From the NCBI RefSeq assembly GCF_011801145.1, contig NZ_CP046172.1, positions 1,984,001 to 2,048,000 on the forward strand: DNA of 64,000 nt, in the 5' to 3' direction. Shown piece after piece: positions 6,701 to 61,549 of this stretch (its first letter is position 1; each line of letters begins with the position of its first letter). The DNA comes from Nocardia arthritidis. Lineage in GTDB: Bacteria; Actinomycetota; Actinomycetes; Mycobacteriales; Mycobacteriaceae. Under the pieces are notes generated by a model. That model was not told the origin of the DNA. It ran no database searches and was given only the letters and a program-made list of their open reading frames with translations. The position numbers were made by a program, and so were the translations under genes.

Positions 6701-9700
6701 GGAACGCGTACTCGCGGAGCTGTTCGGTGAGGTACTCGGGCACGACCGGATCGGCGTCGACGACAATTTCTTCGAGTTGGGTGGCCATTCGCTGTCCGCC
6801 ACCCGGCTGATCAGCCGGATTCGGGCGGAACTCGGGGTCGAGGTGCCGATCCGGACGGTCTTCGACGCGCCGACGGTCGCCCAATTGGCGCTCAGGTTGG
6901 ATTCCGGTGTACGGGTGCGCCCGAAACTGTTGAGCGGGCCGCGTCCGGAGGTTATTCCGCTGTCGTTCGCGCAGCGCCGGTTGTGGTTCATCAATCGGCT
7001 GGAAGGACCTTCCGCCACCTACAACATCCCGGTGGTCGCGCGGTTGACCGGCGCGTTCGACGCGTCGGCGTTCGAGGCCGCGGTCGCCGATGTCGTTGCG
7101 CGGCACGAAAGTTTGCGGACGGTCTTCGTCGAGGTCGATGGCGTTCCGGCGCAGCGGGTACTCGATGCCGACGGCGTCGACGTGCCGGTCGATATCGCCG
7201 AGGTGGCTGCGGCCGAAATAGCCGAGGCGGTTTCGGAGGCGAAGCGGTACCGATTCGACCTGTCCACCCAGATTCCGATCCGGGCGGCCGTATTCCGGTG
7301 CGGTGTCGGCGAATCCGTGCTGGTACTGCTGCTGCATCACATCGCCGGTGACGGTTGGTCGGCGGCAACGCTCTTGCGCGATCTTTCGGTGGCCTATGCG
7401 TCGCGCCTGGACGACCGTGCGCCGGAGTGGGAGCCGTTGCCGGTGCAGTACGTGGATTACACGCTGTGGCAACAGGATCTGCTCGGGTCATCCGACGATC
7501 CGGAAAGCCTTGTCCGCGAACAGTTCGAGTATTGGCGCAGTGAGCTCGACGGGTTGCCGGAGCAGTTGCGGTTGCCGACGGATCGGCCGCGTCCTCGTGT
7601 CGCCAGCTATCGCGGTGACATGGTGTTGTTCGAGATCGATGCCGAGATTCGTAATGCGGTGGAGCGGTTGGCGGTTCGCGAGGGTGCGACCGTATCCATG
7701 GTGCTGCAATCGGCTTTAGCGGTGTTGCTGTTCAAACTCGGTGCTGGGGAGGATATTCCGATCGGATCGCCGATCGCGGGTCGTACCGATGAGGCACTGA
7801 ACGACTTGGTCGGTTTCTTCGTGAACACCTGGGTGCTGCGGACAACTGTCGCTCCGGCAGCGACTTTCCGCGAGATCCTCGCGCAGGTCAGGGCAAAGGC
7901 GTTGGCCGCGTACGAGAATCAGGACGCGCCGTTCGAATTGCTGGTCGAGCTGCTGAATCCGGCGCGCTCGGCGGCACACCATCCGCTGTTCCAGGTCCTG
8001 CTGAGCTTCCAGGACAACACCCTGGCCACGCTGGAACTGCCCGGAGTCGAGGTCGAGCCGCTGCCGCCGGCGGGCGCCACATCGCGATTCGATCTGACGG
8101 TCAATATCGGCGACAGCGCGAACGGTGGATGGGACGGATTCGTCGAATACGCCACCGACCTGTTCGATCGGCCGACGGTCGAGGGCATATCGGCGCGGCT
8201 GGTGCGGATCCTCAGACAGTCGGTGTCGGGTCCGGGCACTGCGGTGGGGACGATCGATGTGCTCGGCGCCGAGGAACGTGAGGTGGTGCTGTGGCGGTGG
8301 AACGAGACGGCCGCCGCAGTCGCGGGCGCCACCGTCACCGAACTGTTCCGGGCCCAGGCCGCACGAACGCCGACCGGGGTCGCCGTATTCTGCGGCGATA
8401 CGGAGGTGACCTACGGAGAACTCGATAGTCGAGCGGATCGGCTTGCACGGGTGCTGATTTCGCGTGGCGTGGGCCCCGACCGCGTTGTCGCGGTGGCGTT
8501 GCCGCGCTCGGCGGAGCTGATCGTCGCGCTGCTCGCGGTGCTGAAGGCCGGTGGCGCGTATCTGCCGATCGATCCGGCATACCCGTCGGATCGGTTGGCA
8601 TTCATTCTCACCGATGCCGCGCCGGTGATCGTCGTGACCGATTCCGCCACCGGGAAAATCCTGCCCGACACGGGAATACCGCGGCTGGAGCTCGACACCG
8701 CCGAGATCCCGGACCAGGCCGATGTGAATCGGATCGTGCGACCGCAGAATCTGGCGTACGTGATCTACACCTCCGGATCGACCGGTGTGCCGAAGGGCGT
8801 CGGCATCACGCACGGCAACGTGCTGAATCTGGTCTCCCAGGACTGGTCGGCCGGTCCCGGCGAGCGGGTGCTCGTCCATTCCTCGATCGCCTTCGACGCG
8901 TCGACCTATGAGATCTGGCCCGCGCTGACGCACGGCGGCGCGGTGGTTTTGGCGGCGGAACAGCGCTCGGATCCGGCGGAGATCATTCGATTGGTCGCGA
9001 AGCGGTCGGTGACCAAGATGTTCTCGACACCGGCATTGCTATCGATACTGCTCGATCAAGTGGCGGCGTCACCCGGCAATCCATTCCGGAGCCTGACCCA
9101 GGTGATCGCGGGCGGAGCCGAACTCACCTCGGCAGTGGCTCGTCGGCTGAAAACCGTTGCGAACGGTTACGGTCCGACGGAAACCACCGTATTCGCCACC
9201 ATGTTCGCGGCCGATGGCATAACGGCGGACGGTCCGGTGCCGATCGGCTCGGCGTTGGCCAATGTTCGTGCCTTCGTTCTGGATTCGGGGCTGCAGCCGG
9301 TGCCGGTCGGTGTGCCCGGCGAGCTCTATATCGCCGGTGCGCAGGTGGCGCGGGGGTATCACGGCCGGGCCGGATCGACCGCGGCACGGTTCGTCGCCGA
9401 TCCGTTCGATCGGTCCGGTGGCCGCCTGTACCGCACCGGTGATGTGGTGCGTTGGAATCCCGACGGGCAGTTGGAGTTCGTCGGACGTGTCGACGACCAG
9501 GTGAAGATCCGTGGCTTCCGGGTGGAGCCCGGTGAGGTGGAAGCCGTTCTGACACAGCATCCTTCGGTCTCGCAGGCGGTGGTGGTCGCGCGCGACGCCG
9601 GAGGCGACGGCGGTACCCGGCTGGTCGGCTATGTGGCCGGTGACCGGGCCGGAACGAGCGGGCACATCGGCGCGAAACGGCTCGACGGCCGCGAGGTACG

Positions 9701-12700
9701 CCGGTTCGCGGCCGAGCGGTTGCCCGAGTTCATGGTGCCCGCGGTGGTGATGGTGCTCGATTCGCTGCCGTTGACCGCGAACGGGAAACTCGATCGCGAG
9801 GCGCTGCCGGATCCGGAATTCGCTTCGGGAGCGGAATACCGGGCGCCGAGCACCATCCAGGAACAAATACTTGCCGAGTTGTTCGCCGAAATCCTGGAAC
9901 TCGATCGGGTCGGTGTCGACGACAGTTTCTTTGCGCTGGGCGGTCATTCGCTGCTGGCGACTCGTCTGGCCAGCCGGATCCGGGCGGTGCTCGGAGTCGA
10001 GGTGCCCATCCGGACGATCTTCGACGCTCCGACGGTGGCCAAACTGGCCGACCGGTTGGACGTGGGCGTGCAGGTGCGTCCGATGCTGTCGGCGCGGGTG
10101 CGGCCGGAGGTGGTCCCGCTGTCGTTCGCGCAGCGGCGGCTGTGGTTCATCCATCGGTTGGAAGGCCGCTCCGCCACCTACAACATGGCGTTGGCGGTCC
10201 GCCTGCACGGTGTGGACGCGGCGGCGTTGCGTGCCGCGATCGGCGATGTCATCGCCCGGCACGAGAGCCTGCGCACGATCTTCGTCGACGCCGATGGCGT
10301 TCCGTCGCAACGGGTTCTGAACGCCGATGACGTCGAGCCGCCGATGACGGTGTCCGAGACCGACGCTACCGGGCTGGCCGAGGCCGTGACCGCCGCGGCG
10401 CGTTACGGATTCGATCTGTCCTCGGAAATACCCATACGCGCCACCGTCTTTCGCTGTGGCGACGAAGAATCCGTGCTGGTGCTGCTGATGCACCACATCG
10501 CCGGTGACGGCTGGTCGCTGACGCCGCTGCTGCGTGATCTGTCGGTGGCTTACGGTGCGCGTCTCGCGGGGCACGCACCTGGCTGGGCGCCCTTGCCGGT
10601 GCAGTACGTGGATTACACGCTGTGGCAGCGAGAGTTGCTGGGGGAGTTGAGCGATACGGACAGTGTGCTGTCGCGGCAGTTCGCGTATTGGCAACGTGAG
10701 CTGGACGGGGTGCCGGAGCAGTTGCGGTTGCCGACGGATCGGCCGCGCCCTCGGGTGGCCAGTTATCGCGGTGACATGGTGCTGTTCGATATCGATCGCG
10801 AAACCCGCACCGGCGTGGAGCGGTTGGCTGCCCGCTCGGGTGCGACGGTGTCGATGGTGTTGCAATCGGCGCTGGCGGTGTTGCTCTTCAAACTCGGTGC
10901 GGGGGAGGACATTCCGATCGGCTCGCCGATCGCGGGTCGTACCGATGAGGCATTGAGCGAGTTGGTCGGCTTCTTCGTCAACACCTGGGTATTGCGGACG
11001 GAGGTCGTACCGTCGGCATCGTTCACCGAAATTCTGGAGCAGGTCCGGGCTAAGGCGTTGGCCGCGTACGAGAATCAGGACGTTCCGTTCGAATTGCTGG
11101 TGGAGTTGCTGAACCCGGCCCGGTCGGCCGCGCACCATCCGCTGTTCCAGGTGTCGCTGGCGTTCCAGAACAACACCCTTCCGGCCCTGGATCTTTCGGG
11201 TGTGCGGATCGAACCCTATCCGGCCACGACCGCGACATCGCGCTTCGATCTGTTCTTCAATATCGCCGACGCCCCGGCGGGTTACGGGTGGAACGGCTTC
11301 GTCGAATACGCGACCGAGCTGTTCGACCGGAGCACGGTCGAATCGATGACGCGGCGACTGGTGCGGCTGCTGCGGCTGATCGTGTCGGAGCCGAATCTGC
11401 CGGTGGGGTCGGTGGATATCCTCGGGGACGCGGAACGGCAGCTGGTATTGCGGCGGTGGAACGAAACCACGCTCCCGGTCCAGGACACCACCCTGCTCGG
11501 GCTGATGGACGCGCGAATCGCCGCGACTCCGGACGCGGTCGCCGTGGTGTGCGGTGACGTTTCGTTGACCTATCGGGAGCTCGATGCTCGCGCCACCCAG
11601 CTGGCGGGCGCCCTGATTTCCCATGGCGTCGGCCCGGATCGGATCGTCGCCGTCGCGCTGCCCAGATCCGCGGAGCTGCTCGTGGCACTGCTCGCGGTGG
11701 TGCGGGCGGGCGGCGCGTATCTGCCGATCGATCCGGCGTATCCGTCGGACCGGTTGGCGTTCATCCTCACCGACGCGGACCCGTTGGTCGTCCTCACCGA
11801 TCGCGATACCGGAAAACATCTGCCGCACAACGTGATACCGCTGCTGTACGTCGACGAGGCGCGAGGTCGAGCCGAGCTCGTCCCTGCCGCGACCCCGCGG
11901 CCGGAGAATCTGGCGTACCTGATCTACACGTCGGGCTCCACCGGTGTGCCGAAAGGTGTTGGGATCACCCATCGCAACGTGGTGAACCTGATCGCGCAGG
12001 CCTGGGCGGCCGGTCCGGGGGATCGGGTGCTCGTGCAGTCCTCGGTCGCGTTCGATGCCTCGACCTATGAGATCTGGCCTGCCCTTTGCGGCGGCGCGAC
12101 AGCCGTGGTCGCGCGGGAGCGGCGCGCGGATCCGGCGGAGCTCACCCGGCTCATCGAGCACCGGTCGGTGACGAAGATGTTCGCGACGCCGCCGCTGCTG
12201 TCCGCTTTGCTCGAGCGCGCCGAAACGCTGCCCGGCAACTGTTTCCGGAGTCTGGCGCAGGTGAATACGGGCGCCGATACGCTGACGGCGGGACTGGCCC
12301 GCGCCCTGCGAAGCAAGTGCGCGGATGTCCGGATCGACAACCTGTACGGCCCCACCGAGGCGACGGTGAATGTGACGTCGTCGGTGGTACCGGAGGTAAT
12401 CCACGGTCCGGCGGCCCCGATCGGTGGTCCGGTGGCCAATACCCGGGTGTTCGTGCTGGATTCGGGATTGGTACCGGTCCCCGTGGGCATACCCGGCGAA
12501 CTGTATGTGGCCGGTGCGCAATTGGCGCGCGGCTATCGGGGCCGGGCCGGATTGACGGCGGCCAGATTCGTCGCCGATCCGTTCGATCGGTCCGGTGGCC
12601 GGATGTATCGCACCGGCGATGTGGTGCGTTGGAATCCCGACGGGCAGTTGGAGTTCGTCGGACGGATCGATGACCAGGTGAAGATCCGCGGTTTCCGGGT

Positions 12701-15700
12701 AGAGCCGGGTGAGGTGGAAAGCGCACTCGCCCAACATCCTTCGGTCTCTCAGGCCGTGGTGATCGCACGCGATACCGATAACGGCGGCAAACAGCTGATC
12801 GGCTATGTGGTCGCCGATACGGCCGGACCCGCTGTCGGCGAGGACGAACTGGTCGGCCAGTGGCGCCGGGTGTACGACGACCTGTACTCCGGTGCCGCCG
12901 AGCCGGAAACGACTCGGTCCGAGCCCGAGTTCGGCGCGGATTTCGGCGGCTGGAACAGCAGCTACACCGGTTCGGCCATCCCGGTGGAGCAGATGCGCGA
13001 ATGGCAGTCCGCGACCGTCGACCGCATCCGCGGGCTGCGTCCTCGGCGGGTACTCGAGATCGGTGTCGGGTCGGGGTTGCTGCTGGCCCGGTTGGCCCCG
13101 GAGTGCGAAGAGTATTGGGCGACGGACTTTTCCGCCGCCACCATCGCGGCGCTCGACCATCGGCTGCGCGAGATCGGCACGGACTGGGCCGGTCGGGTCT
13201 CGCTCAGCGTCCGGACCGCCGACGACACCGCCGGACTGCCGGAGAGCTACTTCGACACCGTGGTGCTGAACTCGGTGGTCCAGTATTTCCCGGGGGCGGC
13301 ATATCTGCGCAAGGTGCTCGAACAGGTGTCGCGCGTGCTTGCGCCCGGCGGCGCGGTCTTCATCGGCGACGTCCGGAATTTCGCGCTGCTGCCGGAATTC
13401 GCGACGGCGGTGCAGATCGCGCGGCACGGCGATGACGATCCGGCATCGCTCGCCGACCGGGTGCGCCGGGATATCGCCGCCGAGCAGGAATTGCTGCTGA
13501 CCCCCGAATTCTTCGTCGACATATGTTGTACGGCACCGGGTTTCGATGCAGTCGATATCGAGCTCAAGCGCGGGCGTGCGGTCAACGAGTTGACCCGATA
13601 TCGCTACGATGTCGTGCTGCGCGCCACCCCGGCCGACGCGGTATCGGTTGCCGATGTGCCGAAAGCCGAGTTCCGCGACGACGATCGGCTTGTCGGGTTG
13701 CTGCACGAACGACACCCCGACGGCATCCGGGTAACCGGTATCCCGCATGCCGGGCTGATCGACGATACCGGTTTCGAAGGGGTGCTCGATCCCGACGCCG
13801 AGCAGGTGGGTGTGCTGCCCGAGGATCTGCACGAGCTCGGGCGGCGGCTCGGTTACACCGTCGCGGTGACGTGGTCCGCGGAGCCGGGTCGGATGGATGC
13901 GGTCTTCCTGGATACCGCGACTGTCGGCGACCGACCACTGACGGACGTGTATGTGCCTGTGGCGGTTGATAATCCGATACCGCATGCCAATAATCCGCAG
14001 TCCGGCCTGCTGGCGGCGGAGGTGCGCAGGTGGGTGAGTGACCGGTTGCCGGAGTTCATGGTGCCCGCGGTGGTGATGGTGCTCGATTCGCTGCCGTTGA
14101 CCGCGAACGGGAAGCTCGATCGCGAGGCTCTGCCGGATCCGGAATTCGGCTCCGGAGCGGAATATCGGGCGCCGAGCACGATTCAGGAGCAGATGCTCGC
14201 GGAGTTGTTCGCCGAAATTCTCGGGCTGGATCGGGTCGGGGTCGACGACAGTTTCTTTGCGCTGGGCGGTCATTCGCTGTTGGCGACCCGGCTGGCCAGC
14301 CGGATTCGGGCGGTGCTCGGGGTAGAGGTGCCGATTCGCACGGTCTTCGACGCTCCGACGGTCGCCCAATTGGCGAGTCGACTGGATTCGGGTGTGCAGG
14401 TGCGTCCGATGTTGTCGGCGCGGCCGCGGCCGGAGGTGGTCCCGCTGTCGTTCGCGCAGCGGCGGCTGTGGTTCATCCATCGGTTGGAGGGACCGTCGGC
14501 CACGTACAACATCGCCTTGGCGGTCCGGTTGACCGGTGCGTTCGATACATCGGCGTTCGCGGCCGCGGTCGGCGATGTCGTTGCGCGGCACGAGAGTTTG
14601 CGCACGATCTTCGTCGAGGCGGACGGCACGCCCGCGCAGCGGGTGCTGGCGGCCGACGGCGTCGAGGTGCCGATGACGGTGACCGGCGTCGACGCCGCCG
14701 AGCTGGATGCGGCGGTGACCGAATCGGTGCGGTACCGATTCGATCTATCGTCGGAACTGCCCATCCGCGCCAATGTTTTTCGCACGGGGCGCGAGGAATG
14801 CGTGCTGGTCGTCCTGATCCATCACATCGCCGGTGACGGTTGGTCGATGACGCCGCTGCTGCGCGACCTGACAACGGCGTATGCGGCGCGCCTCGCGCAT
14901 CGAGCGCCGGGGTGGGAGCCGCTGCCGGTGCAGTACGCGGATTACACGCTGTGGCAACAGGATCTGCTGGGGTCCGCCACGGACGCGGACAGCGTGCTTT
15001 CGCGGCAGTTCGAGTATTGGCGGGGTGAGCTCGACGGGTTGCCGGAGCAGTTGCGGTTGCCGACGGATAGGCCGCGTCCACGTGTCGCCAGTTATCGCGG
15101 TGACATGGTGCTGTTCGAGATCGATGCCGAGATTCGTAATGCGGTGGAAAGACTGGCGGTTCGCGAGGGCGCGACGGTATCGATGGTGCTGCAATCGGCG
15201 TTGGCGGTGCTGCTGTTCAAACTCGGTGCGGGCGAGGACATTCCGATCGGATCGCCGATCGCGGGCCGCACCGATGAGGCATTGAGCGATCTGGTCGGGT
15301 TCTTCGTCAATACCTGGGTGCTGCGGGCCGCGCCGACCGCCTCGGCAACATTCGGCGAGATCCTGAGCCAGGTCAGGGCAAAGGCGTTGGCGGCCTACGA
15401 GAATCAGGATGTCCCGTTCGAATTGCTGGTGGAGTTGCTGAATCCGGTTCGCTCGGCGGCGCATCATCCGTTGTTCCAGGTATCGCTGGCATTCCAGAAC
15501 AACACGCTGCCGGTGTTGGAGCTGTCCGGCGTTCGGATCGAACCGCATCCCGCATTCACCGCGACCGCGCGGTTCGACCTGTTCTTCAATATCGCCGACG
15601 CCCCGGCGGGTCGCGCGTGGAGCGGGCTGGTCGAATACGCGACCGAATTGTTCGACCGCCCGACGGTCGAGGCGATGGCGGCCCGGTTCGTTCGGATATT

Positions 15701-18700
15701 GCGGTCGATCGGGTCCGAGTCCGGCACTCCGGTGGGCGTCATCGACGTTCTCGGTTCCGAGGAACGGGAATCGGTGCTGCGCCGGTGGAACGACACGATC
15801 GCCGACGTCGCCGACACCACCGTCACCGAATTGTTCCAGGCGCGGGTCCTTCGTGCCCCGGACGCGTTCGCGGTCGTCTGCGGCGACACGCACATGTCGT
15901 ATCGGGAGCTCGATACCCAAGCGGAACAGCTCGCGCGGGTGTTGGTTTCGCGCGGGGCCGGTCCGGACACCATTGTCGCGGTGGCGTTGCCGCGCTCGGC
16001 CGAACTGATCGTCGCGCTGCTCGCGGTGCTGAAGGCCGGTGGCGCGTATCTGCCTATCGACCCGGCGTACCCGTCGGATCGCTTGGCGTTCGTGCTCACC
16101 GATGCCGCGCCGGTGGTCATGGTGACCGACTCCGCCACCGCGAAACTCCTGCCCGACACCGAGACACCGCGAATTCATCTCGACGCACCGAATACCAATG
16201 GTGTGCGGGGCCACCGGCTCGGTGCGGTACGCCCGTCGAATCTGGCCTACGTGATCTATACATCCGGATCGACCGGCGTGCCGAAAGGCGTTGGTATCAC
16301 CCACCGCAACGTCGTGAACCTGGTATCCGGGGCGTGGACCGTCCGTCCCGAGGATCGGGTACTCGCGCATTCCTCGGTGGCGTTCGACGCCTCCACGTAC
16401 GAGATCTGGCCCGCCCTGTGCGGCGGGGCGACCCTGGTGGTGGCGGCCGAGCGCCGCTCGGATCTGGCGGAGATCACGCGATTGATCGAAACCCGCTCGG
16501 TCACAAAGATGTTCGCGACACCGCCGATGTTGTCGGCGCTGCTCGACCACGCCGAATCCGTGCCGGGCGCACCGCTGCGGACGCTGGGACGGATCATCGT
16601 CGGCGGCGCCGAGCTGACGGCGGATGTGGTGCACAGGCTGAACTCGAAATACCCGGACGCCCAGGTGATGAACGGATACGGCCCCACCGAGACGACGGCG
16701 TGCGTCACCGATTACGACGCGCTGCCGGACATCGGCGGCGCGGTACCGATCGGCCGTCCGCTCGGCAATGTGCGAGTGTACGTGCTGGATTCGGGGCTGA
16801 CGCCGACGCCGGTGGGTGTGCCCGGCGAATTGTATGTCGCGGGTGCGCAATTGGCGCGAGGCTATCACGGCCGGGCAGGGCTGACCGCGGCCCGATTCGT
16901 GGCAGATCCGTTCGATGCGGACGGCGGCGGCCGACTGTATCGGACCGGGGATGTGGTGCGGTGGACCGCATCGGGACTGTTGGAGTTCGTCGGCCGGGTC
17001 GACGATCAGCTGAAGATCCGTGGCTTCCGGGTCGAGCCCGGTGAGGTGGAAAGCGCTCTGGCCCAACATCCTTCGGTCTCGCGGGCAGTGGTTGTCGCGC
17101 GGGAGACCGATACGGGCGGCAAACAGTTGATCGCCTACGTGGTCGCCGACCGGTCCGGTCCCGTGGCCGGCGAGGACGAACTGGTGGGGCAGTGGCGCCG
17201 CGTGTACGAGGATCTGTACGGCGGGAACGGGAAACGAAACGGCAACGGCAACGGGTCCGGATTCGGCTCGGATTTCGGCGGCTGGAACAGCAGCTACACC
17301 GGCGCCCCGATACCGCTGGCGCAGATGCGCGAATGGCGGATGGCGACGGTCGAGCGGATCCGCGCGCTGCGGCCGGGGCGGGTGCTGGAGATCGGCGTCG
17401 GCTCGGGTCTGCTGCTTTCGCAGCTGGCCCCCGACTGCGAAGAGTATTGGGCGACAGACTTTTCCGCCGCCACCATCCGCACGCTCCAGGAACATCTGGC
17501 GGGACTCGACGCGGAATGGGTCGACCGCGTAGTCACCAGCGTCCAAGCGGCCGACGATCCGGATGGACTGCCGGAAGGTCGTTTCGACACCGTGGTGCTG
17601 AATTCGGTCGTGCAGTACTTCCCCGGGGAGGCCTACCTGCGCCGGGTCCTCGAGCAGGTGCACCGCGTGCTGGCCCCCGGTGGCGCGGTATTCGTCGGCG
17701 ATGTCCGCAATCTCGCGCTGCTCGAGGAATTCGTCACCGCGGTGCAGATCACCCGAAACGGCGGCGATGATCCCGGCGCGGTCCGGGATCGGGTGCGCCG
17801 CAGCCTCTTCGCCGAGCGCGAACTGTTGGTCGCACCGGAGTACTTCCTCGGCGTCGGTGGTTTCGATGCCGTCGATATCGAGTTGAAGCGTGGATACTCG
17901 GTCAACGAGCTGAGCCGCTACCGCTACGACGTCGTGCTGCGCAAGGCACCGGTGCACCCGCTGTCGGTGGGTGATGTGCCGAAAGCCGAATTCCGCGAGC
18001 ATGATTGGCTGTGCGAGCTGCTGCGTACCCGACACCCCGACGGAATTCGGGTTGTCGGCATCCCGCATGCGGGGCTGCTCGGTGAAATAGCGGCCACCGA
18101 GCGCATACGGTCCGGTAGGGCCGTTGAAAGTCGGCAAAACGATTCCCTCGCAGCGGGTTTCGAAGGCGTGCTCGACGCGGTGCCCGAGCGCGCGAGTGCG
18201 GGTCTGCTGCCCGAGGATCTGTATGTGCTCGGTCGGCGATTCGGATACGCCACCGCGGTCACCTGGTCTGAGGAGCCAGGCCGGATGGAGGCGGTCTTCA
18301 TCGACGTCGCGGCGGCCCAGGACCGGCCGCTCACCGATGTGTACGCACCGCAGGCAATTTCGGGAGATCCGGCCGCATACGCCAACAATCCGCAGGACAC
18401 GCTCCTACCCGCCGATGTGCGCCGGTTCGCGGCCGAGCGATTGCCGGAGTTCATGGTTCCCGCCGTGGTGATGGTGCTCGAATCGGTGCCGTTGACCGCG
18501 AACGGGAAGCTCGATCGCGCGGCGCTGCCCGATCCGGAGTTCGCCGCTGGGGCGGAATATCGCGCGCCGAGTAGCGAACGGGAACGGGTGCTCGCCGAAC
18601 TGTTCGCCGAAATCCTCGGGCGTGACCGGGTGGGCGTCGACGACAGCTTCTTCGCGCTCGGCGGCCATTCGCTGTTGGCCACCCGCCTGGCCAGCCGGAT

Positions 18701-18842
18701 CCGCGACGTACTGCGCGTCGAGGTGCCGGTGCGCATCATCTTCGACGCGCCGACCGTCGCCCAACTCGCACAACGATGGCCACAGCTGGCCCCCGCGCGG
18801 CGACCAGCTCTGCGCAAGATGAGCCGAGAGGTTGGTCTGTGA
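3798..18842 (+). CDS. NRPS 1, modules 1-4: starterC-A-T / C-A-T / C-A(nMT)-T / C-A(nMT)-T
   Basis: A 5014-residue multimodular synthetase. C1 (1-430, active site H138-H139-x3-D143-G) resembles the EntF-type starter condensation domain, so the chain is probably begun with an acyl or aryl group. A1 follows (454-950), with a Stachelhaus code read by eye as DFWNIGMVHK, the textbook Thr code, then T1 (Ser998). Module 2: C2 (HHIAGDG at 1180), A2 (1512-1995), T2 (Ser2051). Module 3: C3 (2232), A3 from 2563 with a methyltransferase of about 385 residues inserted after core A8 (about 3013-3398; SAM loop EIGVGSG from 3087), T3 (Ser3493). Module 4: C4 (3675), A4 from 4007 with a second inserted methyltransferase (4458-4871; SAM loop from 4531), T4 (Ser4958). 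Methyltransferases at this position N-methylate the bound aminoacyl group. There is no E or TE domain, so the peptide passes to NRPS 2. RBS is GAGGA, 8 nt before ATG. Confidence 0.96.
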
Positions 18843-53173: not shown

Positions 53174-55726
53174 TCAGAACGGTCCGATCGTGGGAGCGGG
53201 ATCCCCGGTGTGCAGGCGGCGGACGAAGCCGAGGATTCCGGCGCGGCCCGACGCCCAGGACATGTTGGAGGACTGGTCGGTTGGGCGACGGGGGAGGTCG
53301 TCGGGGTTGTCGGTTATGCCGCGGAGGAGGAGTTGGGTCATGGCGGAGTGGGCCGCCTCGGTGAAGCGGGCCTCGGCGGTGATGTCGGCGAGGCGCAGAA
53401 CGAAGTCGCCGACGCCCGCGATACCGCAGCAGGCGGTGGGGTGGGACAGGTAGGGGATCCACTCCGCGCATCTGTCGCCCGCGGCGACGGCGAGGTCCAA
53501 TGCTTCTGCGTCGGAGCGGCTTTCGGCTATGTCCAGGAGCGCGTTGCCGATTCCGGCGAGTCCGCGGCACCACGAGACGCACAGGGGGACAGCGGTTGTC
53601 CGGCCCGAACGTTCGATCAGCTGACGAGTTTGCCGGTACAGCACCGGAGTTCGGGTGTCGATCCCGGAAAGCTCCGGTTCGATGACGCCAGCGCGGATCA
53701 TATGCAGCAGCGCGGTGATGATTCCGGCCTGCCCGTGTCCGAGCCCGGCGGTGGTGTCCATTCCGGCGGCGACGGGCAGATCCTCTGCGGGATACCGTGA
53801 TTCGGCATCGGAGTGATCGGACAGCGCTTGCGCGCACTGGCGGGCCACCGCGAGGTGACGGTCCCGATCGTCCGGAACGGCCTCGGCGAGCAGGCAGTGT
53901 CCGAGTCCGACACCGGCCGCGCCGACGATGATATCGTCCCCATACGGTCGCCAATCGGCCGCTGGCCACGCCAAATCGGTTGGCAGTGTTGGTATTTCGA
54001 TCCCATCGGCGCGGACGCGGCGGAGCATGATCTCGATGCCGGTCGAACCGACGAACAAGCCGGGTTTGCTGCGCACCCAGCTCGCCGTCGCGGCGGTGAA
54101 TTGGGCCAGGCGGCCGACGGCTGCGGCGACATCGGGGCGATGCAGGTGGTGTCGGAGTTCGAGGGCGACGCCCGCGCCGCCGCGGTACACGTTCACCTCG
54201 GGCCACTCGCCCGCCGTTTCGAGCATCGTGTCGACCTCGGTGAGGATATCGTCGACGAGACGATCGGCGAGCTCGGCAGGCTCCATTCGTGTGATCCGGT
54301 CCGGAGTTCGGAATCCGTTGAACTGCCGCGGTTTTCCGGAACTCAGGATTCGTAGCGCCGCGGTTCGGCGATCGATATCCGCATCGAGCAGACCGGCGAC
54401 GCAGCGTATCGAGGGCGGCGGCTGGTCGCCGTAGATCCGCCGGATGGTCTGCAGTGCGCGCATGCGCGGCGCGTCCGGGTCGGGTCCGCCCATGACCGGA
54501 ACCGCGCCGGTCGCGGCGAACAGCAGCGTCATGCCGAGGGCGTACATATCGTCGGCGGGCGTGGCAGGCGCACCGGCCAACTGCCCCTGCGGCGAATATC
54601 CGGGGGTGCCGCCGGTGAAATGAATATCGTCGTGACCGCTCAGCCCGAAATCGATGAAGGTCGGCGCACTGGTGGCCTCCCGGATGACGACGTTCTTCGG
54701 CGACAGATCGGTGACAGTTATTCCGCGGTCGTGGATTTCGAGCAGGATGCGCGCCAAACGTTCCGCCAGCCGGTCGAGCGTCCGCGCTTCCCGATCCGCT
54801 TCGGACCTGGCCGGTCTGTACCGCCCATTGCGCGGGACGTCTTCGGTCAGATCGTGCTCGCCGTCGCAGCTGGTGACCAGATATTCATCGGATCCGTGCC
54901 GGAAATGATCGAAAAACCTTGGCACACCGTCGATTCCGGCGAGACGCTGGAGGACGAGCCGTTCGTTGCGCAGCCGCAGGCAGGCGTCCTCGCCGGAAGG
55001 GGCTTCGGCGGTGTAGGCGCGGGCCTGCTTGACGATGACCTGTTCTCCGGTGCGAATATCCTCGGCGCGATAGACATTGCCCTGGCCGGATTGTTTGAGA
55101 CCGTCCGTCGGGCGATAGTGGTCGCCGAGGATTTCGACCGGGCGGTCGTCGCTCGCGCCGAACGGATCCTCGGCCCACGGCGGTTGCTGATATGCCTGTT
55201 TGGCCAGCCCGTCGAAGATTTCGCCGTTCGGCCCGGTCATTCGGGTATTCAGGCTGCCGTCGGATTCCGCGACCAATTGTCGCTGGAATGGGCCGTAGCG
55301 ATAGTAGACGGGAGCGTCCGGACTGACGCGTCGATCGGAGAGGATCCGCGGTCCGGTTTCACCCCGGAGCAGTTCTGCCAGCTCTTTGCCGAGGCTCTGG
55401 ATCAGTGCGAGGTCCGGATATACGGTGAAGGCTTTGCCGATCGATCCCGAGGCGTCTCTGCCCTCGTTCAACGACATCAATACCTTCGACGATCGCGCCA
55501 ATTTGAAATTGCAACCGGCCGCCAGCAGCGCCGGGACCACTATCCGCGCGATCCGCTCGAACTGTGTGCTGCGAGCCGAAATATGTAGTTTCCATCCGTG
55601 CTCGGGCAACCTGACGTCCGGATTGTCCACGTATAGCCAAACCGGCGATCGACGCAGGCGGCGGCCGTACCCGGCCGCCGCCCACGCCACGGCCCGCTCG
55701 ATTTCGGAGTGCTCGGCATCCTTCAT
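53174..55726 (-). CDS. Lanthionine synthetase, LanL-like (lyase-kinase-cyclase) with a CCG zinc site
   Basis: 850 residues. The N-terminal pSer/pThr-lyase-type domain (about 1-195) is followed by a Ser/Thr kinase-like domain (about 205-470) with catalytic loop TD340LSPKN345 and D359FG. The C-terminal LanC-like cyclase (about 490-850) has GLGH664GQAG, SWC720RG and AC766C767G. Class III and IV lanthipeptide synthetases share this order. Class III cyclases have lost the zinc ligands, whereas here Cys720, Cys766 and a third position are kept, pointing to class IV. The third ligand position is Cys rather than the usual His (CCG instead of CHG), as in promiscuous ProcM-like LanM cyclases. It should dehydrate Ser/Thr by phosphorylation and elimination, then add Cys thiols. 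It lies 64 bp after three precursor genes on the same strand. GGAG lies 10 nt before ATG. No transporter or protease is adjacent. Confidence 0.92.
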   Translation of the reverse strand: MKDAEHSEIERAVAWAAAGYGRRLRRSPVWLYVDNPDVRLPEHGWKLHISARSTQFERIARIVVPALLAAGCNFKLARSSKVLMSLNEGRDASGSIGKAFTVYPDLALIQSLGKELAELLRGETGPRILSDRRVSPDAPVYYRYGPFQRQLVAESDGSLNTRMTGPNGEIFDGLAKQAYQQPPWAEDPFGASDDRPVEILGDHYRPTDGLKQSGQGNVYRAEDIRTGEQVIVKQARAYTAEAPSGEDACLRLRNERLVLQRLAGIDGVPRFFDHFRHGSDEYLVTSCDGEHDLTEDVPRNGRYRPARSEADREARTLDRLAERLARILLEIHDRGITVTDLSPKNVVIREATSAPTFIDFGLSGHDDIHFTGGTPGYSPQGQLAGAPATPADDMYALGMTLLFAATGAVPVMGGPDPDAPRMRALQTIRRIYGDQPPPSIRCVAGLLDADIDRRTAALRILSSGKPRQFNGFRTPDRITRMEPAELADRLVDDILTEVDTMLETAGEWPEVNVYRGGAGVALELRHHLHRPDVAAAVGRLAQFTAATASWVRSKPGLFVGSTGIEIMLRRVRADGIEIPTLPTDLAWPAADWRPYGDDIIVGAAGVGLGHCLLAEAVPDDRDRHLAVARQCAQALSDHSDAESRYPAEDLPVAAGMDTTAGLGHGQAGIITALLHMIRAGVIEPELSGIDTRTPVLYRQTRQLIERSGRTTAVPLCVSWCRGLAGIGNALLDIAESRSDAEALDLAVAAGDRCAEWIPYLSHPTACCGIAGVGDFVLRLADITAEARFTEAAHSAMTQLLLRGITDNPDDLPRRPTDQSSNMSWASGRAGILGFVRRLHTGDPAPTIGPF

Positions 55727-55790: not shown

Positions 55791-55961
55791 TCAATTGAAT
55801 TCGAAATGGCCGGTGCCGATGCAACCCCACGATTCCGGATCGCAATAGCTGGTGTGCGGACATGCGACCGCGTACAGCTGATCGACATCGCCGAAGGTGA
55901 TATCCGGTTCGACCGTGGTCGAGCCCGCATCGCGGGGAGCCAGTTCAAGCAGGGTTTTCAT
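55791..55961 (-). CDS. Lanthipeptide precursor 3
   Basis: 56 residues, too short for routine gene callers. The leader starts MKTLLELAPR and continues with GSTTVEPDI, matching the other two precursors. The core from about residue 33 has C34, T37, C40, S44, C47, T50: the pattern C-x2-[ST]-x2-C-x3-[ST]-x2-C-x2-[ST]. Two [ST]-x2-C pairs could form (methyl)lanthionine rings. The tail GHFEFN is unique to this copy. It lies 12 bp after precursor 2 and 64 bp before the synthetase. Confidence 0.85.
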   Translation of the reverse strand: MKTLLELAPRDAGSTTVEPDITFGDVDQLYAVACPHTSYCDPESWGCIGTGHFEFN

Positions 55962-55973
55962 TTCAAATATCTT

Positions 55974-56150
55974 TCACTCGTTGGTCGGTGCGATACAGCT
56001 GTGGTAGCAGTACGCCGAATCGGTCCCGCAATAGCAGCTGGTGAGGCATGCGTTCACCTCGTGCAACTGAAGTGTGTCGGGGAATTCGATATCCGCTTCG
56101 ACTGTATCCGAGCCCGCGCATCGCGGGGCCAGCTCGAGCAGAGTTGTCAT
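55974..56150 (-). CDS. Lanthipeptide precursor 2
   Basis: 58 residues from ATG 56150. The open frame reaches 56258, but that extension overlaps precursor 1 in another frame, and the leader consensus starts at 56150. The leader starts MTTLLELAPR and includes GSDTVEADIEF. The core has C35, S38, C41, S45, C48, S51, in exactly the same register as precursor 1, plus extra Cys at 39 and 52 and extra Thr/Ser. It is therefore the most Cys-rich of the three, with capacity for more rings. It is preceded by a weak GAGA site and lies 28 bp after precursor 1. Confidence 0.88.
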   Translation of the reverse strand: MTTLLELAPRCAGSDTVEADIEFPDTLQLHEVNACLTSCYCGTDSAYCYHSCIAPTNE

Positions 56151-56178
56151 GACAAAGTAATTTTCTCTCGTCGGGTTA

Positions 56179-56337
56179 TCAGGCGGTGCCGAAACAGGCA
56201 TCCGTGCCATACACGCAGTACGCGGATTCTCGGCATGCGTTCGCTCGGTGCAAATCATAAGGACCGGAGAATTCGATATCGGTTTCGACCGTATCCGAGC
56301 TCACAAAGCGAGGGGATAATTCCAGCAGTGCTTCCAT
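56179..56337 (-). CDS. Lanthipeptide precursor 1
   Basis: 52 residues, first gene of the lan operon. The leader starts MEALLELSPR, then SSDTVETDIEF and an acidic, Tyr/His-containing stretch. The core ANACRESAYC... has C35, S38, C41, T45, C48, T51, matching the shared pattern. The ATG at 56337 has GAAGG 7 nt upstream. LLEL-containing leaders recall the conserved hydrophobic leader motif of class III/IV precursors. No double-Gly or obvious protease site is seen, so maturation would need a protease encoded elsewhere. Confidence 0.88.
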   Translation of the reverse strand: MEALLELSPRFVSSDTVETDIEFSGPYDLHRANACRESAYCVYGTDACFGTA

Positions 56338-56501: not shown

Positions 56502-56531
56502 ATCATATGACGTCCTACGAATCCGTGTCAA
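56502..56531 (-). promoter_or_regulatory. Near-consensus promoter of the lanthipeptide operon
   Basis: Reading the minus strand, TTGACA (56531-56526) is followed after 18 bp by TATGAT (56507-56502). The -35 is perfect and the -10 differs from consensus at one base. Transcription would start near 56495, giving a leader of about 155 nt before precursor 1. It separates the lan operon from the decarboxylase gene ending at 56600. Confidence 0.7.
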
Positions 56532-56599: not shown

Positions 56600-58006
56600 C
56601 TATCGCCGTGGTGCTTTCACAGAGCCGATCCGAGAGTCCGGGCCCGAGCTGTACTTCCGCGCCAACTCGCGCAGCCGGAAGAGCAGTTCCGGTGTAGCCG
56701 AAAGGCTTTCCGGTTTCATCAGCACGCTGCGGAGGATGCGAGCGTCCGGGCGATCGGGCGTCACACCGGTATCGCGGAGCGCGAAATCGTTTGCCCGCAC
56801 ACGCAGTAACGCCACATAGACCGGATCGGTGTCGGTCATGCCCGCTGTCATGAGAGCGGCGGATGCGGCGTCCAATGCGGTTAGGGTTCGCGGCTGGGCG
56901 GGGTAGTAGGTGACGATATCGAGGTCCGGCTCCTGATACAGCCGCAACACCGGGTCGTGGCGCAATTCCGCCGCCCAGCGCAATGCGGCCTGCCGACCAG
57001 GGGTCAGTACCGCGCCCAGGCCGTCGGGGGTGAGTGGGAAGACCCGCAATGTGAGCCACAGTGCCGCGGCGGCCGCGCCGGATCGCGAACACTCGAGGCT
57101 CAACTCGCCGGGATGCAGCTCGCCGGACGTGAAATAGGTGTAAGGGGAGTCGTGCAGGAAGAAGCGGCCGACCTCGGCGTCGCGATACAGCACGGCCCCG
57201 CAGCCATAAGGTTGCAGTCCATGTTTGTGCGGGTCGACGACGACCGAGTCGCAGTCTCCGATGGCCCGCCACGGAGCCGGATCGAGAATCGAGGCATCGC
57301 TTTCCGCGATTGTCTTGTGGAAGCCCCCGTAGGCGGCATCGACATGAACCCGGACCCCGTGACGACGGGCGAGGGGGAGGATCTCGTGCACCGGGTCGAC
57401 CGCACCCAATGCGGTGGTGCCGACGGTCACGACCACCGTGCCGACCCGTCCGGTGCGCAACGTCTGCTCGAGCGCTGCGAGGTCCAGGCGGCCGCGTTCG
57501 TCGACCGCGACGGGGTAGGCCGGAATATTCAGGACGTGACACATTCGGGCATGGGTGTAATGGGCGTCGGCGCTGAACGCGACACCCGCGCTCGGATGGC
57601 TTTCGCGAGCGACGTAGAGCGCCTGCAGGTTTCCGAGAGTGCCGCTGGATGTCAAGTGGCCGAAGGGAATCGGCAACCCGAACATGGCGGCCAGCTGTTC
57701 GATGACCTCCCGCTCCAACGCGGCGGTCGCCGGACCGCCGTCCAGCGCATGGTTGTTGGGATTGGCCAGCATCGCAGTCAGATAGCCGAGGGCCGCGACC
57801 GGATGCGGCGGCTTGAGCATCTGTCCGACGTAGCGCGGATGAAAGAACGGGTAGGTGTCACGCAGCCGCCCGGCGAGTTCGGCGAAGGCGTCGCCGAGCC
57901 GTTCCTCGTCCACCGCACATGCCGGATGGGCGGCGAAATCCGGCCAGCGGCCGGTCCATTCCCGGTGGGCGGCCACCGACCGTGGCAGCCAATTCGCGAA
58001 ATCCAT
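56600..58006 (-). CDS. PLP-dependent group II amino-acid decarboxylase (second of two)
   Basis: 468 residues. The PLP-binding Lys261 lies in VVDPHK261HGLQPYG; upstream VGTTALGAVDP and HVDAAYGG carry the residues that stack on and hold the cofactor ring. This is the Pyridoxal_deC family, which decarboxylates aromatic or acidic amino acids (Asp, Glu, diaminobutyrate, Trp, Tyr). The substrate is not decided by these motifs. HVDAAYGGF is typical of tyrosine/aspartate-type members. The ATG at 58006 has AAGG 6 nt upstream; the open frame to 58717 is antisense-like noise overlapping the next gene. It follows decarboxylase 1 after only 11 bp. Confidence 0.9.
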   Translation of the reverse strand: MDFANWLPRSVAAHREWTGRWPDFAAHPACAVDEERLGDAFAELAGRLRDTYPFFHPRYVGQMLKPPHPVAALGYLTAMLANPNNHALDGGPATAALEREVIEQLAAMFGLPIPFGHLTSSGTLGNLQALYVARESHPSAGVAFSADAHYTHARMCHVLNIPAYPVAVDERGRLDLAALEQTLRTGRVGTVVVTVGTTALGAVDPVHEILPLARRHGVRVHVDAAYGGFHKTIAESDASILDPAPWRAIGDCDSVVVDPHKHGLQPYGCGAVLYRDAEVGRFFLHDSPYTYFTSGELHPGELSLECSRSGAAAAALWLTLRVFPLTPDGLGAVLTPGRQAALRWAAELRHDPVLRLYQEPDLDIVTYYPAQPRTLTALDAASAALMTAGMTDTDPVYVALLRVRANDFALRDTGVTPDRPDARILRSVLMKPESLSATPELLFRLRELARKYSSGPDSRIGSVKAPRR

Positions 58007-58017
58007 TCGATGCCTTA

Positions 58018-59487
58018 CTATTTCGGGCCAGCCGCCGCGGCGTTGATCCGCGCGGCGCGGGTCCGGCCGCATTCGGCGACGTGATCGAGGGTGTCCTCGA
58101 CGTGCCGGATGCTGGTCCGCGGGTTGATCGTGCACATGCGCAACACGGTCTCGCCGCGCACCACGGTGGTGGTGATCATGGCGAACCCGGCCTTCAGCAC
58201 CGTGTCGGCCAGCTCGGCCTGGAAAGAATCGAGGTCGTGGCCGGGTGCGACGCCTGGCGGACGGTACCGGAAGGTGACCACACCCAGCCCCGGCTCGCTG
58301 GCCGGTTCGAGATCGGGATGGTGGGCGATGACGGTGGCCGCGTGCTCGGCGAGCGCGATCCCTTGGTCGATGGCGTCGCGGAAAGCGTTGGCGCCGAAGG
58401 TTTTCAACGACAACCACAGTTTGAGCGCGCGCAGCCCGCGGGTTTGTTGCGGGCCGTAGTCGGACAGATTGGGTTCTCGCCCATCGGATTCGGCGACCGC
58501 GAGGTAGCCGGTGTCGAGAAAGTGCCGGGCCATCGCGAAGGTTTCCTTCAACCGCTCGGGTCGGCGCAGCAGGACACAGCCGAGTTCGTAGGGCTGGAAG
58601 AGCCATTTGTGCGGATCGAGGGTCAGCGAATCGACACGGTTCAGGCCCGTGGTCATGCGGCGGCCGCGGGCGGTGGCCGCGGCCGCCGCGCCGAAGGCGC
58701 CGTCGGCGTGCAGCCACAATCCATATCGTCCGCAGATGTCGGCGAGGTCCTCCAGCGGATCCACCGCGCCGGTGCTGGTGGTGCCGACCGTCGCGACGAC
58801 CAGAAACGGGCGCAATCCAGCGTCGCGGTCTTGCCGAATCCGTTCGGCCAACCGAGCCGGGTCCAGCCGGAGCCGGTCGTCGGGCGGCAGGACCACGAGC
58901 TGGTCACGTCCGATGCCGATGATGTGGAGCGCGCGGGCGATCGAGGGGTGTGCCTGGGTCGAGCAGTAGGCCCGCGCCCCGGTGAGATCGCCGCCGAGCA
59001 GGCTGTCCCGTGCCACGGTCAATGCCGTGAGGTTCGCCATCGAGCCGCCGGAGACGAACAATCCACCGAAACCCGCGTCGAGGCCGAGTAATTCGCGCAG
59101 CCAACGCAGCGTGACCAATTCCAGTTGGGTGGGCCCGGAGCCGACCAGCCATGCCCCCGGCACCGACAGAAACGCTGCCGCGAGCGCGTCCGCGAGCACC
59201 GCCGGATAGTTACCGGAGGTCGGCACGAAGGCGAAACACCGCGGATGGTCGGAGTGCATACCCGATGGCAGCGTATCGGCGGCCAGTCGCTCCAACAGCC
59301 CCACCAGATCCTGGCCGTGTTCGGGAATGGGCTCATCCCAATCCCTTTCGAGGTCTCGGCGGGATCGGCGGATGAGCACCGGTCCGAGCTCACCTGCGTT
59401 CATGCGCTCGATGATCAGCTCGATGCCGCGGTGACCCGCCGCACGCATCTGGTCGTCCGGCAGGGTCAGCGGCGGCAGGCTCGGCAT
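58018..59487 (-). CDS. PLP-dependent aromatic-L-amino-acid-type decarboxylase (first of two)
   Basis: 489 residues. PLP Lys294 is in LDPHK294WLFQPYELG, with VGTTSTGAVDPL and LHADGAFGAAA upstream. The overall order (N-terminal swap helix, FAFVPTSGNYPAVLAD, GLFVSGGSMANLTAL) resembles aromatic amino-acid and related decarboxylases. The ATG at 59487 overlaps the stop of the ATP-grasp gene as TGATG, with GAGGGG 5 nt upstream, so translation is coupled. Having two different group II decarboxylases in one operon is unusual. They may act on different amino acids or as a heteromeric pair. Confidence 0.9.
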   Translation of the reverse strand: MPSLPPLTLPDDQMRAAGHRGIELIIERMNAGELGPVLIRRSRRDLERDWDEPIPEHGQDLVGLLERLAADTLPSGMHSDHPRCFAFVPTSGNYPAVLADALAAAFLSVPGAWLVGSGPTQLELVTLRWLRELLGLDAGFGGLFVSGGSMANLTALTVARDSLLGGDLTGARAYCSTQAHPSIARALHIIGIGRDQLVVLPPDDRLRLDPARLAERIRQDRDAGLRPFLVVATVGTTSTGAVDPLEDLADICGRYGLWLHADGAFGAAAAATARGRRMTTGLNRVDSLTLDPHKWLFQPYELGCVLLRRPERLKETFAMARHFLDTGYLAVAESDGREPNLSDYGPQQTRGLRALKLWLSLKTFGANAFRDAIDQGIALAEHAATVIAHHPDLEPASEPGLGVVTFRYRPPGVAPGHDLDSFQAELADTVLKAGFAMITTTVVRGETVLRMCTINPRTSIRHVEDTLDHVAECGRTRAARINAAAAGPK

Positions 59488-60848
59488 CACGACCCCTCGA
59501 CGTAGGCGGTTACGGCGGTTACCCATTCGGCCGCGGCCGGGGTGAGTCGCGGGTGTGCCCGCAAGCTCGCTACGGGTTCGGCGATTTGGATCAGCACGAG
59601 CTCGTCTCCCAGCCGCACCTCCGTTCCGGATTCGGTCTGCGCCCACAGCAGTGCGTGTCCGGCCGAAAGATCTGTCAGACAACGGGTTTCGCCGGGCACC
59701 GGGATATCGTCGATCAGCCGGTATGTTCCGGATTCCGGCAGTGCGCCCAGCCGCCGGTCCCGGTCGGCATGCACCACCAGTTGGCCGAGCGTCGGCACCG
59801 GCGCCGTGACGGTCTGGACCGGCAACTCCGGCAGCAGGCAGGTGAGTACGTGCAGACCGAGACACGGCAATAGGCCCGCGCATTGTTCGACCGCCTGCAC
59901 CAACGACACGACCGTCTGGAATCGGGGATTGATTTCGATGGCCAGCGGCCGATTCCGTTCCAGCACCAGATCCAGACCGAAAATTCCGCGAAATCCGCGG
60001 CGGCGCAGCCGATCTCCTACTCGAGCCGCGGCCGCGCGGATGGCCTCGTAGCTGCCGTCGGGCAGATCGGCGGGTGCGATGAGCTGATTGCCGCAGTGCG
60101 CGCCCCAGACGGTGGTCAAACCGGGGATGCCGACCAGTTGATGTGACACGGCCGATACGATCGTCGCGTTCCCGGCGACGCACGCGGTGACGGTCACCGA
60201 GGGACCGTCGACGTACCGGGCCACTCTCAATTCCCTTCCGGCCCAGTCATCCAGGCATTCCTGCAATTCCCGGTGATCGCGCGCCGAACGGGTGCCTCTG
60301 CCGATCAGATTGTTCTCCCGACGCTGCACCACCGCTGCCTGCCAGCCGTCGAGCCAGTACTGTCTCGCGGCGGCACGATCGTTCGACGGCACCCGCACGA
60401 ATTCCGGTGTTTCGACATCGGCTTCGGCGAACAATGCCATCGCGTCGAGTTTGTCGGCCGCGATCGCCGACGCCGCCGGGTCGGGCGCCAGTAATGGCAA
60501 ATCTCTGGCCGCGGCCCAATCGCGGGCCGAGGGGCCGTGTTCGGGGGCGAACGCCACGCACACCCCGCGCCCGGCCGCAGTACCACACCCATCGGCATTC
60601 GAAAACGGTGCGACCGTATACAGTTCGGGCCCGCGTCCGGCATCGAAGGCCGGGCGAGCGGATGCGGCCAAAAACGGCGAACGGTCCAACCAGTGAATCT
60701 CGTCGACCGCTGCCGCCAATAGGTCCATACCCTCGTTCAGGTCCAGTCCGTCGATTATCGCGAATTTCTGTGCTGGAAGGCCGGACTCGGCCGTGTCGCA
60801 GCCGGTCGCCTGGCTGATCGTCATAGCCCGCGACTCTATCCGAGTCAT
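59487..60848 (-). CDS. ATP-grasp-fold ligase
   Basis: 453 residues. The central ATP-grasp region includes AADKLDAMALFAEADV (Lys, lid helix), the adenine-side VVQRRENNLIGRGT, and the metal site GIFGLDLVLE followed by AIEINPRFQ (Glu and Asn bind Mg-ATP). ATP-grasp enzymes join a carboxylate, via acyl phosphate, to an amine, thiol or imino group. The substrate-binding N- and C-terminal parts match no family I can name. The start is uncertain: ATG 60848 or ATG 60824. As first gene of an operon with two amine-forming decarboxylases, it may attach the resulting amine to a carboxylic acid (inference). Confidence 0.82.
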   Translation of the reverse strand: MTRIESRAMTISQATGCDTAESGLPAQKFAIIDGLDLNEGMDLLAAAVDEIHWLDRSPFLAASARPAFDAGRGPELYTVAPFSNADGCGTAAGRGVCVAFAPEHGPSARDWAAARDLPLLAPDPAASAIAADKLDAMALFAEADVETPEFVRVPSNDRAAARQYWLDGWQAAVVQRRENNLIGRGTRSARDHRELQECLDDWAGRELRVARYVDGPSVTVTACVAGNATIVSAVSHQLVGIPGLTTVWGAHCGNQLIAPADLPDGSYEAIRAAAARVGDRLRRRGFRGIFGLDLVLERNRPLAIEINPRFQTVVSLVQAVEQCAGLLPCLGLHVLTCLLPELPVQTVTAPVPTLGQLVVHADRDRRLGALPESGTYRLIDDIPVPGETRCLTDLSAGHALLWAQTESGTEVRLGDELVLIQIAEPVASLRAHPRLTPAAAEWVTAVTAYVEGS

Positions 60849-61021
60849 GCTCTCGAATGAGGGATGCCGCTCGGCCGGAAATTCGCTGGAAATTCAGGCG
60901 ATTTGTGCCGAAGGCGAGGGGGAGATTTCTGGACCTCATCGGTGGAATGGCCGTATCGATCCTGATTTCGAGTGCGGTGAATGCGTGTTGCCGCGGTGCG
61001 GTGCTGCTAACTTCATGAGCC

Positions 61022-61549
61022 ATGATCAATTCACGATTGGTCGTGCTGACCACTTCCGCATTCTGTGCGCTGGCCTGGGTGCCGCTCGCGGGGACCGCCA
61101 ACGCCGCTGTTGTGCTCGCTTGCGATGAGACCGGCACCGTCACCTGGGACGGACAGGGAATCGGCGCCTCGCCGGCGAAAGTGCATTGGACCGACAAAAT
61201 AAAGTTCGGCAATTGCACCGGCACGGCCGTCGATCAGGGGCAACCGACTCCGGTCAGCGAGACCGACGACGGTACCGAGACCGCCAGTTGCGGCGGGGAG
61301 ACCACCGATAACACCAGCAAGGGGACGATCACCTGGTCCGACGGCTCCACCAGCGAGGTCGGCGCCGAGGGGCGGGCGAAGAACAAGGACGACGGATCCC
61401 GGCCCGGCGTGTTCCCGACCCGGATCCGCACCGGAAACTACCAGGGCAAAACGGCCACCGATGTCAATGCGGTGACCCCCGCCCCGGGCCAGAAATGCCC
61501 CGGCATGACCTCCGCCGCACTCGCGGGAACCTTCACGATCACTGACTGA
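61022..61549 (+). CDS. Secreted protein of unknown function
   Basis: 175 residues. The signal peptide is at 1-28 (Arg, hydrophobic core, cleavage after ANA). The mature part is small, Thr/Gly/Asp-rich and probably beta-rich, with four Cys residues (VLACDET, GNCTG, ASCGG, QKCPGM) likely forming two disulfides outside the cell. I recognise no family; short secreted proteins of this look are common in Nocardia. No clear ribosome site precedes the ATG. A short GC hairpin (CCCCAG-aa-CTGGGG, near 61553-61567) follows the stop. Confidence 0.65.
   Translation: MINSRLVVLTTSAFCALAWVPLAGTANAAVVLACDETGTVTWDGQGIGASPAKVHWTDKIKFGNCTGTAVDQGQPTPVSETDDGTETASCGGETTDNTSKGTITWSDGSTSEVGAEGRAKNKDDGSRPGVFPTRIRTGNYQGKTATDVNAVTPAPGQKCPGMTSAALAGTFTITD

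Follow-up and report, generated by a model that had tools for sequence, protein, structure and literature searches.

Three short open reading frames lie one behind the other upstream of a lanL gene in the 64,000-nucleotide stretch of Nocardia arthritidis DNA analyzed here (the window). They raise the question of whether one lanthionine synthetase is served by three substrates of its own, and what kind of peptide it would make from them. The initial annotation had called the frames lanthipeptide precursors sharing one core pattern, and had supposed that their leader and their family might be new. We consider it very likely that the frames and lanL form a class IV lanthipeptide locus, in which the three substrates are paralogues of one another. 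The reading of the rings, and of the variation between the three cores, is held more tentatively.

Precursor genes, synthetase and neighboring genes

The three frames are present and intact on the minus strand, with the lengths first reported. Copy 1 (56182..56337, stop codon 56179-56181) encodes 52 residues with the core CRESAYCVYGTDACFGTA and is matched by the profile HMM. Copy 2 (55977..56150, stop 55974-55976) encodes 58 residues with the core CLTSCYCGTDSAYCYHSCIAPTNE, its start being internal to a longer ORF of 94 aa, and copy 3 (55794..55961, stop 55791-55793) encodes 56 residues with the core CPHTSYCDPESWGCIGTGHFEFN. Identity to copy 1 is 48% for copy 2 and 43% for copy 3. Copy 2 has three additional Cys residues (11, 39 and 52), of which the one at 39 is found again in many relatives. 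The leader M-x-x-LLEL-x-PR followed by S-[DT]-TVE-x-DI-x-F is there in every copy, as had been claimed, and so is the core C-x2-[ST]-x2-C-x3-[ST]-x2-C-x2-[ST], which begins at residue 35, 35 and 34 in copies 1, 2 and 3. When the cores were shuffled 200,000 times, this pattern appeared, at whatever position, in 1, 101 and 2 shuffles, respectively.

The genes follow head to tail on the minus strand in the order copy 1, 2, 3 (56337-55791) and then lanL (55726-53174), with gaps of 28 nt between copies 1 and 2, 12 nt between copies 2 and 3 and 64 nt between copy 3 and lanL; these distances, taken from the coordinates, are compatible with a single transcript for precursors and synthetase. Visual inspection shows GAAGG-like sites ahead of copy 1 and of lanL, and a weak one ahead of copy 2. 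A promoter-like TTGACA-18-TATGAT (56502..56531, minus strand) lies about 165 nt upstream of copy 1 and agrees with the consensus at 11 of 12 positions, a consensus match only; the sigma-70-like scan that returned this one site finds a mean of 0.5 in shuffled sequence. A search against Rfam at gathering thresholds gave no match between 53000 and 61500.

The adjacent enzyme (53174..55726, minus strand, 850 aa) combines a RamC_N lyase (8e-47), a Pkinase (1e-12) and a LANC_like domain (1e-19) with a WCRG...CCG zinc-type motif in one protein. It scores 629.4 bits over nearly the whole NCBIfam LanL model NF038150, just missing the curated cut-off of 650, and far above the 339.5 bits obtained with the class III model. 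Class III cyclases lack the zinc ligands. A class III (LanKC) assignment was rejected on the presence of the zinc-type Cys and on the higher class IV score. The best PDB match is 8car (E 5e-129, residues 8-844), which is labeled 'Serine/threonine protein kinase'; since its sequence is also found in 8cav, beside the precursor CuvA, presumably from Thermomonospora curvata, we regard it as a LanL. A literature search for 8car and 8cav found no paper. Residues C720 and C766/C767 (CxG, CCG) align with Cys of 8car, and the zinc-type Cys are invariant in six Nocardia LanLs, as are K46, H48, R78 and Y103. By their spacing, the latter four correspond to the lyase residues Lys51, His53, Arg83 and Tyr108 given for VenL, the class IV enzyme of venezuelin (PMC2843593), with which the window enzyme shares its architecture. 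An AlphaFold model from a six-row alignment was too poor for use (mean pLDDT 60.6). Judged by its sequence, the window LanL is class IV in architecture, and the three peptides look like its substrates, so that their designation as lanthipeptide precursors appears well founded.

Two PLP-dependent decarboxylases and an ATP-grasp protein on the minus strand, together with a secreted-looking protein on the plus strand (56600..61546), probably lie outside the lanthipeptide system. In a hybrid cluster, the decarboxylases and the ATP-grasp ligase would tailor the lanthipeptide, for instance by adding an amine; the genes are on the same strand and directly next upstream, and the ATP-grasp protein has a weak similarity (E 0.03) to amine ligases, MfnD among them. 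Against this, a gap of 262 nt containing the promoter-like site separates them from the precursors. Relatives of these four genes were found by tblastn (E<=1e-8) in none of 88 other LanL-bearing loci (some of them duplicates), and occurred only in one N. pseudobrasiliensis locus (G090, L115), which has no LanL and holds together counterparts of the ATP-grasp protein (73%), the first PLP enzyme (84%) and the secreted protein (68%); the second PLP enzyme has only a distant PLP relative (30%) in that genome. A hybrid cluster is very unlikely, the PLP and ATP-grasp genes probably forming a system of their own. Elsewhere in the window, at 3798-18842 and 18776-39322, are two very long ORFs of 5014 and 6848 aa that we take for NRPS genes from their size and first residues.

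The leader and the distribution of the family

The supposition that the leader is unlike those of classes III and IV does not hold, since related leaders precede most of the actinobacterial LanLs sampled. The leader survey covered 80 LanL loci, chosen out of 87 as those whose LanL most resembles alignment A3, and was iterative. A related leader, either an HMM match or an R[DE]A[GE] ORF, was found before 68 of these best 80 LanLs, one of which (L102) looks spurious. HMM matches with E<1e-3 occurred in 46 of the 80, and an ORF with the R[DE]A[GE] motif on the same strand within 1 kb upstream in 50; the minus-strand control, which used the motif only, gave 2 of 80. A leader signature obtained by comparison is thereby able to find precursors in most sampled LanL loci. 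The L..PR.AG motif reads PRCAG in copy 2 and PRDAG in copy 3 and deviates to PRFVS in copy 1. PR is invariant across the 20 rows of the A6 precursor alignment, together with M1, L4, E18, F23 and the three Cys (the PR being P9 and R10).

CuvA in 8cav begins MSALLEPRDAG, and the presence of this EPRDAG leader near the N-terminus of a peptide in a solved structure suggests that the leader type was already known. CuvA resembles the window system in this kind of leader and in its partner, the LanL chain to which the window enzyme is most similar in the PDB, and differs in an unrelated core, TCTVCHWGYTILCDDFST. The kinship is indirect. Compared directly with CuvA, the A6 profile gives a weak E of 0.81, with unrelated proteins ranking ahead, and the link runs through L089-type precursors, which adjoin LanLs and with which CuvA groups at E 4e-17.

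Homologous peptides do occur beside related synthetases. The same genome holds a fourth precursor copy, with a middle spacing of x2 instead of x3, at 5248901-5249056 next to a second LanL of 61% identity, and further relatives lie upstream of LanLs in other Nocardia, in Streptomyces, Micromonosporaceae and Streptosporangiaceae. The family is nevertheless rare. With the genome of origin counted in each case, precursors were found in 3 of 150 Nocardia genomes and close LanLs in 4 of 150 (six genes in total), while the A4 profile matched in 8 of 397 genomes of the order, two of them (G181, G517) mostly over the leader and with different cores, and the wider A6 profile in 2 of 394 genomes of the class. 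Protein database searches returned 5 proteins with A2 and 25 with A6, the latter named 'hypothetical protein', not named at all, or in one case (UniRef) 'FxLD family lantipeptide'.

It had been suggested that the family may be undescribed. In favor of this are the uninformative names and the searches with six A4 precursors, which matched no Pfam model and gave chance-level matches in NCBIfam. However, Walker et al. (2020) mined 401 class IV precursors (PMC7268733), and some relatives of the window precursors may be among them. We regard the family as a real and probably uncharacterized branch of the class IV lanthipeptides, and its tandem triplet as unusual. Characterized members of class IV are few. 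According to PMC9576775, two further members doubled the number of class IV lanthipeptides known from the venezuelins and SflA, and other papers name streptocollin and globisporin as well.

LanL loci of other kinds were found as well. At L032 (7594-7842) and L031 (7758-7949), a class IV-type leader is followed by the Cys-free repeats (DSSWSLAH)n and (GDSTW)n, and the LanLs directly downstream retain the zinc motif. As ORFs without Cys were discarded in the methods given in PMC7268733, precursors of this type would be missed there. A search for Cys-free relatives with A5 in 394 genomes returned a single match, a different, secreted-looking protein; this DSTW-repeat protein (L122 from 1174, G641) is similar to the Cys-free precursors and probably unrelated. 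The opposite extreme to variable cores is the nearly invariant HG.QAC.NTCKRT.C...PCC.SIV beside LanLs of Nonomuraea, Actinomadura and relatives (L042, L050, L054-L056, L058-L062, L066, L068-L070, L072, L074, L085, L094). At L021 (8448-10868) and L022 (8632-11067), and also in L025 and L082, there is a LanL homologue whose lyase/N-lobe region is shortened; the two Nocardia concerned are CDC159 and N. pseudobrasiliensis, and NRPS-type genes lie beside it. A domain scan of its neighbors in L021 identified AMP-binding, MFS, PhyH, a C-A-T module and a thioesterase, with L022 alike by first residues, and no precursor was found near either. In the LanL tree this homologue arose from within the precursor-linked Nocardia LanLs, and a non-ribosomal peptide may have become its new substrate.

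Ring direction and loop variation

The same or nearly the same core spacing is found again in homologues from other species, which allows its fixed and variable parts to be told apart. The spacing table comprises 34 distinct precursors, leaving out L026 and L027, relatives from sister LanL loci in which the third unit is absent. Ser or Thr stands at +3 of the first core Cys in all 34 and at +3 of the last Cys in 33, the one miss being copy 2 when scored on Cys52, as its Cys48 fits. The window precursors belong to what we define here as the C-x2-[ST] core family, with three Cys of which the first and last have Ser/Thr at +3. The middle unit is looser, with Ser/Thr at +4 in 26 of the 34, at +3 in 9 and at +5 in 6 (overlapping counts), and none in one relative, P0027. 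The distance from the first to the middle Cys is 5, 6 or 7, and from the middle to the last 4, 6, 7 or 8. These data place the insertions and deletions between the C-x2-[ST] units and not inside the first or last, which we read as a sign of small rings in which Cys comes first.

The conventional direction would instead give Ser/Thr-first S-x2-C rings (38-41 and 45-48), leaving Cys35 and Thr/Ser51 either unlinked or part of a larger ring. For the Nocardia cores this is hardest to dismiss, and 23 of the 34 precursors retain a Ser/Thr at -3 of the middle Cys, as do 28 of the 34 at -3 of the last Cys (a nearest-residue count gives the lower values 21 and 22). Yet [ST]-x2-C is lost in 11 and 6 of the 34, when C-x2-[ST] is kept at the two ends in 34 and 33, and Streptomyces cores such as RCPITYCDYTCMGT have Thr next to Cys. 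The comparison of 34 and 33 with 23 and 28 favors Cys-first rings without settling their direction, and Ser/Thr-first rings keep a substantial if less than even probability. Since Cys columns form part of the profiles used to gather the sequences, the conservation of Cys is in part an effect of ascertainment.

Class III cores carry the labionin motif S-x2-S-x3-C, which by eye is absent from the three window cores. VenA appears to differ from the window precursors in leader and core. Two rings proposed for venezuelin, Cys34-Dhb39 and Cys45-Dha49, are Cys-first (PMC2843593), which would put such rings within reach of a class IV enzyme. Unlike the plan proposed here, venezuelin has overlapping rings, and the ven cluster has an ABC transporter pair alongside. 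SflA, likened here by description, is a class IV product with two non-interlaced rings, as against up to three here, and its leader is removed by an unclustered AplP-like protease (PMC8358304, PMC10885120).

A fixed ring frame with variable loops had been claimed for the three copies, and it extends across species. The column table covers seven of eight sequences, the copy at the second N. arthritidis locus failing the strict pattern through its middle x2. In these seven strict sequences the Cys columns have an identity of 1.0 and the remaining ring columns hold S or T without exception (7/7), while the 11 non-ring core columns have pairwise identities of 0-0.33, 9 of the 11 lying at or below 0.19; most loop positions are thus near random between relatives. 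Codon differences at positions 1/2/3 are 0.68/0.68/0.60 in the loops and 0.39/0.23/0.42 in the leader, a comparison of 5 sequences (10 dependent pairs, 11 loop codons) which, small and dependent as the sample is, hints at diversifying change in the loops. From this we infer Cys-first rings on a hypervariable scaffold. The fuller proposal, that a frame of three small Cys-first rings has been kept across several actinobacterial families with loops evolving faster than neutral, and that Nocardia expanded it in tandem under one promiscuous LanL, is plausible enough to state and rather doubtful as a whole.

Three probable substrates for one enzyme

Core type follows the LanL tree. This tree contains 79 of 84 LanL rows, those of at least 780 aa, of which 52 carry one of five labels, one for each of four core types and one for the NRPS-linked pair that lacks precursors. 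The labels need 4 changes, the minimum, against a mean of 27.0 when shuffled, a value as low being reached in 0 of 200 shuffles. The window LanL falls in the starred 32-row branch that includes all 16 rows labeled as three-unit cores. Taken on its own against the other labeled rows, the three-unit label requires 3 changes, since Cys-free and NRPS-linked rows are interspersed with the three-unit ones.

Copy number is a different matter. Among 53 loci with E<1e-3 (two of them duplicates), more than one precursor was found only in the window, with three, and in L049, with two. According to PMC7268733, 83% of class IV precursors are the only one in their cluster, which makes a triplet unusual, though not unknown in kind. 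The L049 pair (7407-7559 and 7674-7844), at a LanL locus of Labedaea rhizosphaerae, is likewise in tandem and has a different core type.

The initial annotation had left open whether the triplet is a multi-component product or the diversification of one scaffold. Three differing cores on one likely transcript with one enzyme could indeed act jointly, like two-peptide lantibiotics. This is unlikely, however, as all three cores follow a common plan with no distinct alpha and beta types, the triplet occurs in no other sampled species, and the other sampled loci of the same core type have one precursor each, for which reason diversification is favored. That the copies are decayed or silent and yield no product might be suspected from the rarity of the family (three Nocardia genomes of the 150, its own included), and is extremely unlikely given that every ORF is intact and that ring residues are conserved amid varying loops, which is not expected from decay.

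Under diversification of one scaffold, a single transcript would probably carry the three precursors and the synthetase. LanL would recognize the shared leader, L..PR....E.D[IV].F, phosphorylate Ser/Thr of the core and eliminate the phosphate to give Dha/Dhb, to which its zinc cyclase would join the core Cys. In the likeliest plan at most three small rings form that do not overlap, each with its Cys N-terminal to Ser/Thr (C-x2-[ST], C-x3-[ST], C-x2-[ST]). With loops free to vary, duplication would lead to related but different products of one enzyme. The leader is probably cut by a protease encoded elsewhere, none being found among the few flanking genes scanned in the window. That scan covered ten proteins, five from the window and five from L006, L013 and L014, and they had nothing in common; an FtsX permease was seen in L013 and an M20 peptidase in L014. 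The analysis itself establishes the ORFs and their order, their homology, the domains and motifs of LanL, the pairing of precursors with LanL, the conserved ring residues and the variable loops. Expression, modification, ring direction, products and function of the locus are all read here from its genes, with the chemistry supplied by family knowledge.

Prochlorosins are made by a LanM enzyme from many substrates with a Nif11 leader. In this class II system, too, one synthetase acts on a number of substrates whose leaders are conserved and whose cores vary (a likeness drawn partly from PMC7268733 and partly from general background), whereas the window locus has few copies and a fixed ring frame. 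If the fuller proposal is true, the locus would be a small natural combinatorial library, prochlorosin-like in its logic but built on one fixed ring topology. Natural substrates that differ mainly in their loops and share one LanL would make it possible to test how much variation the enzyme tolerates in its substrates, in which direction the rings form and in what order they close, and the locus might serve as a scaffold for peptide libraries.
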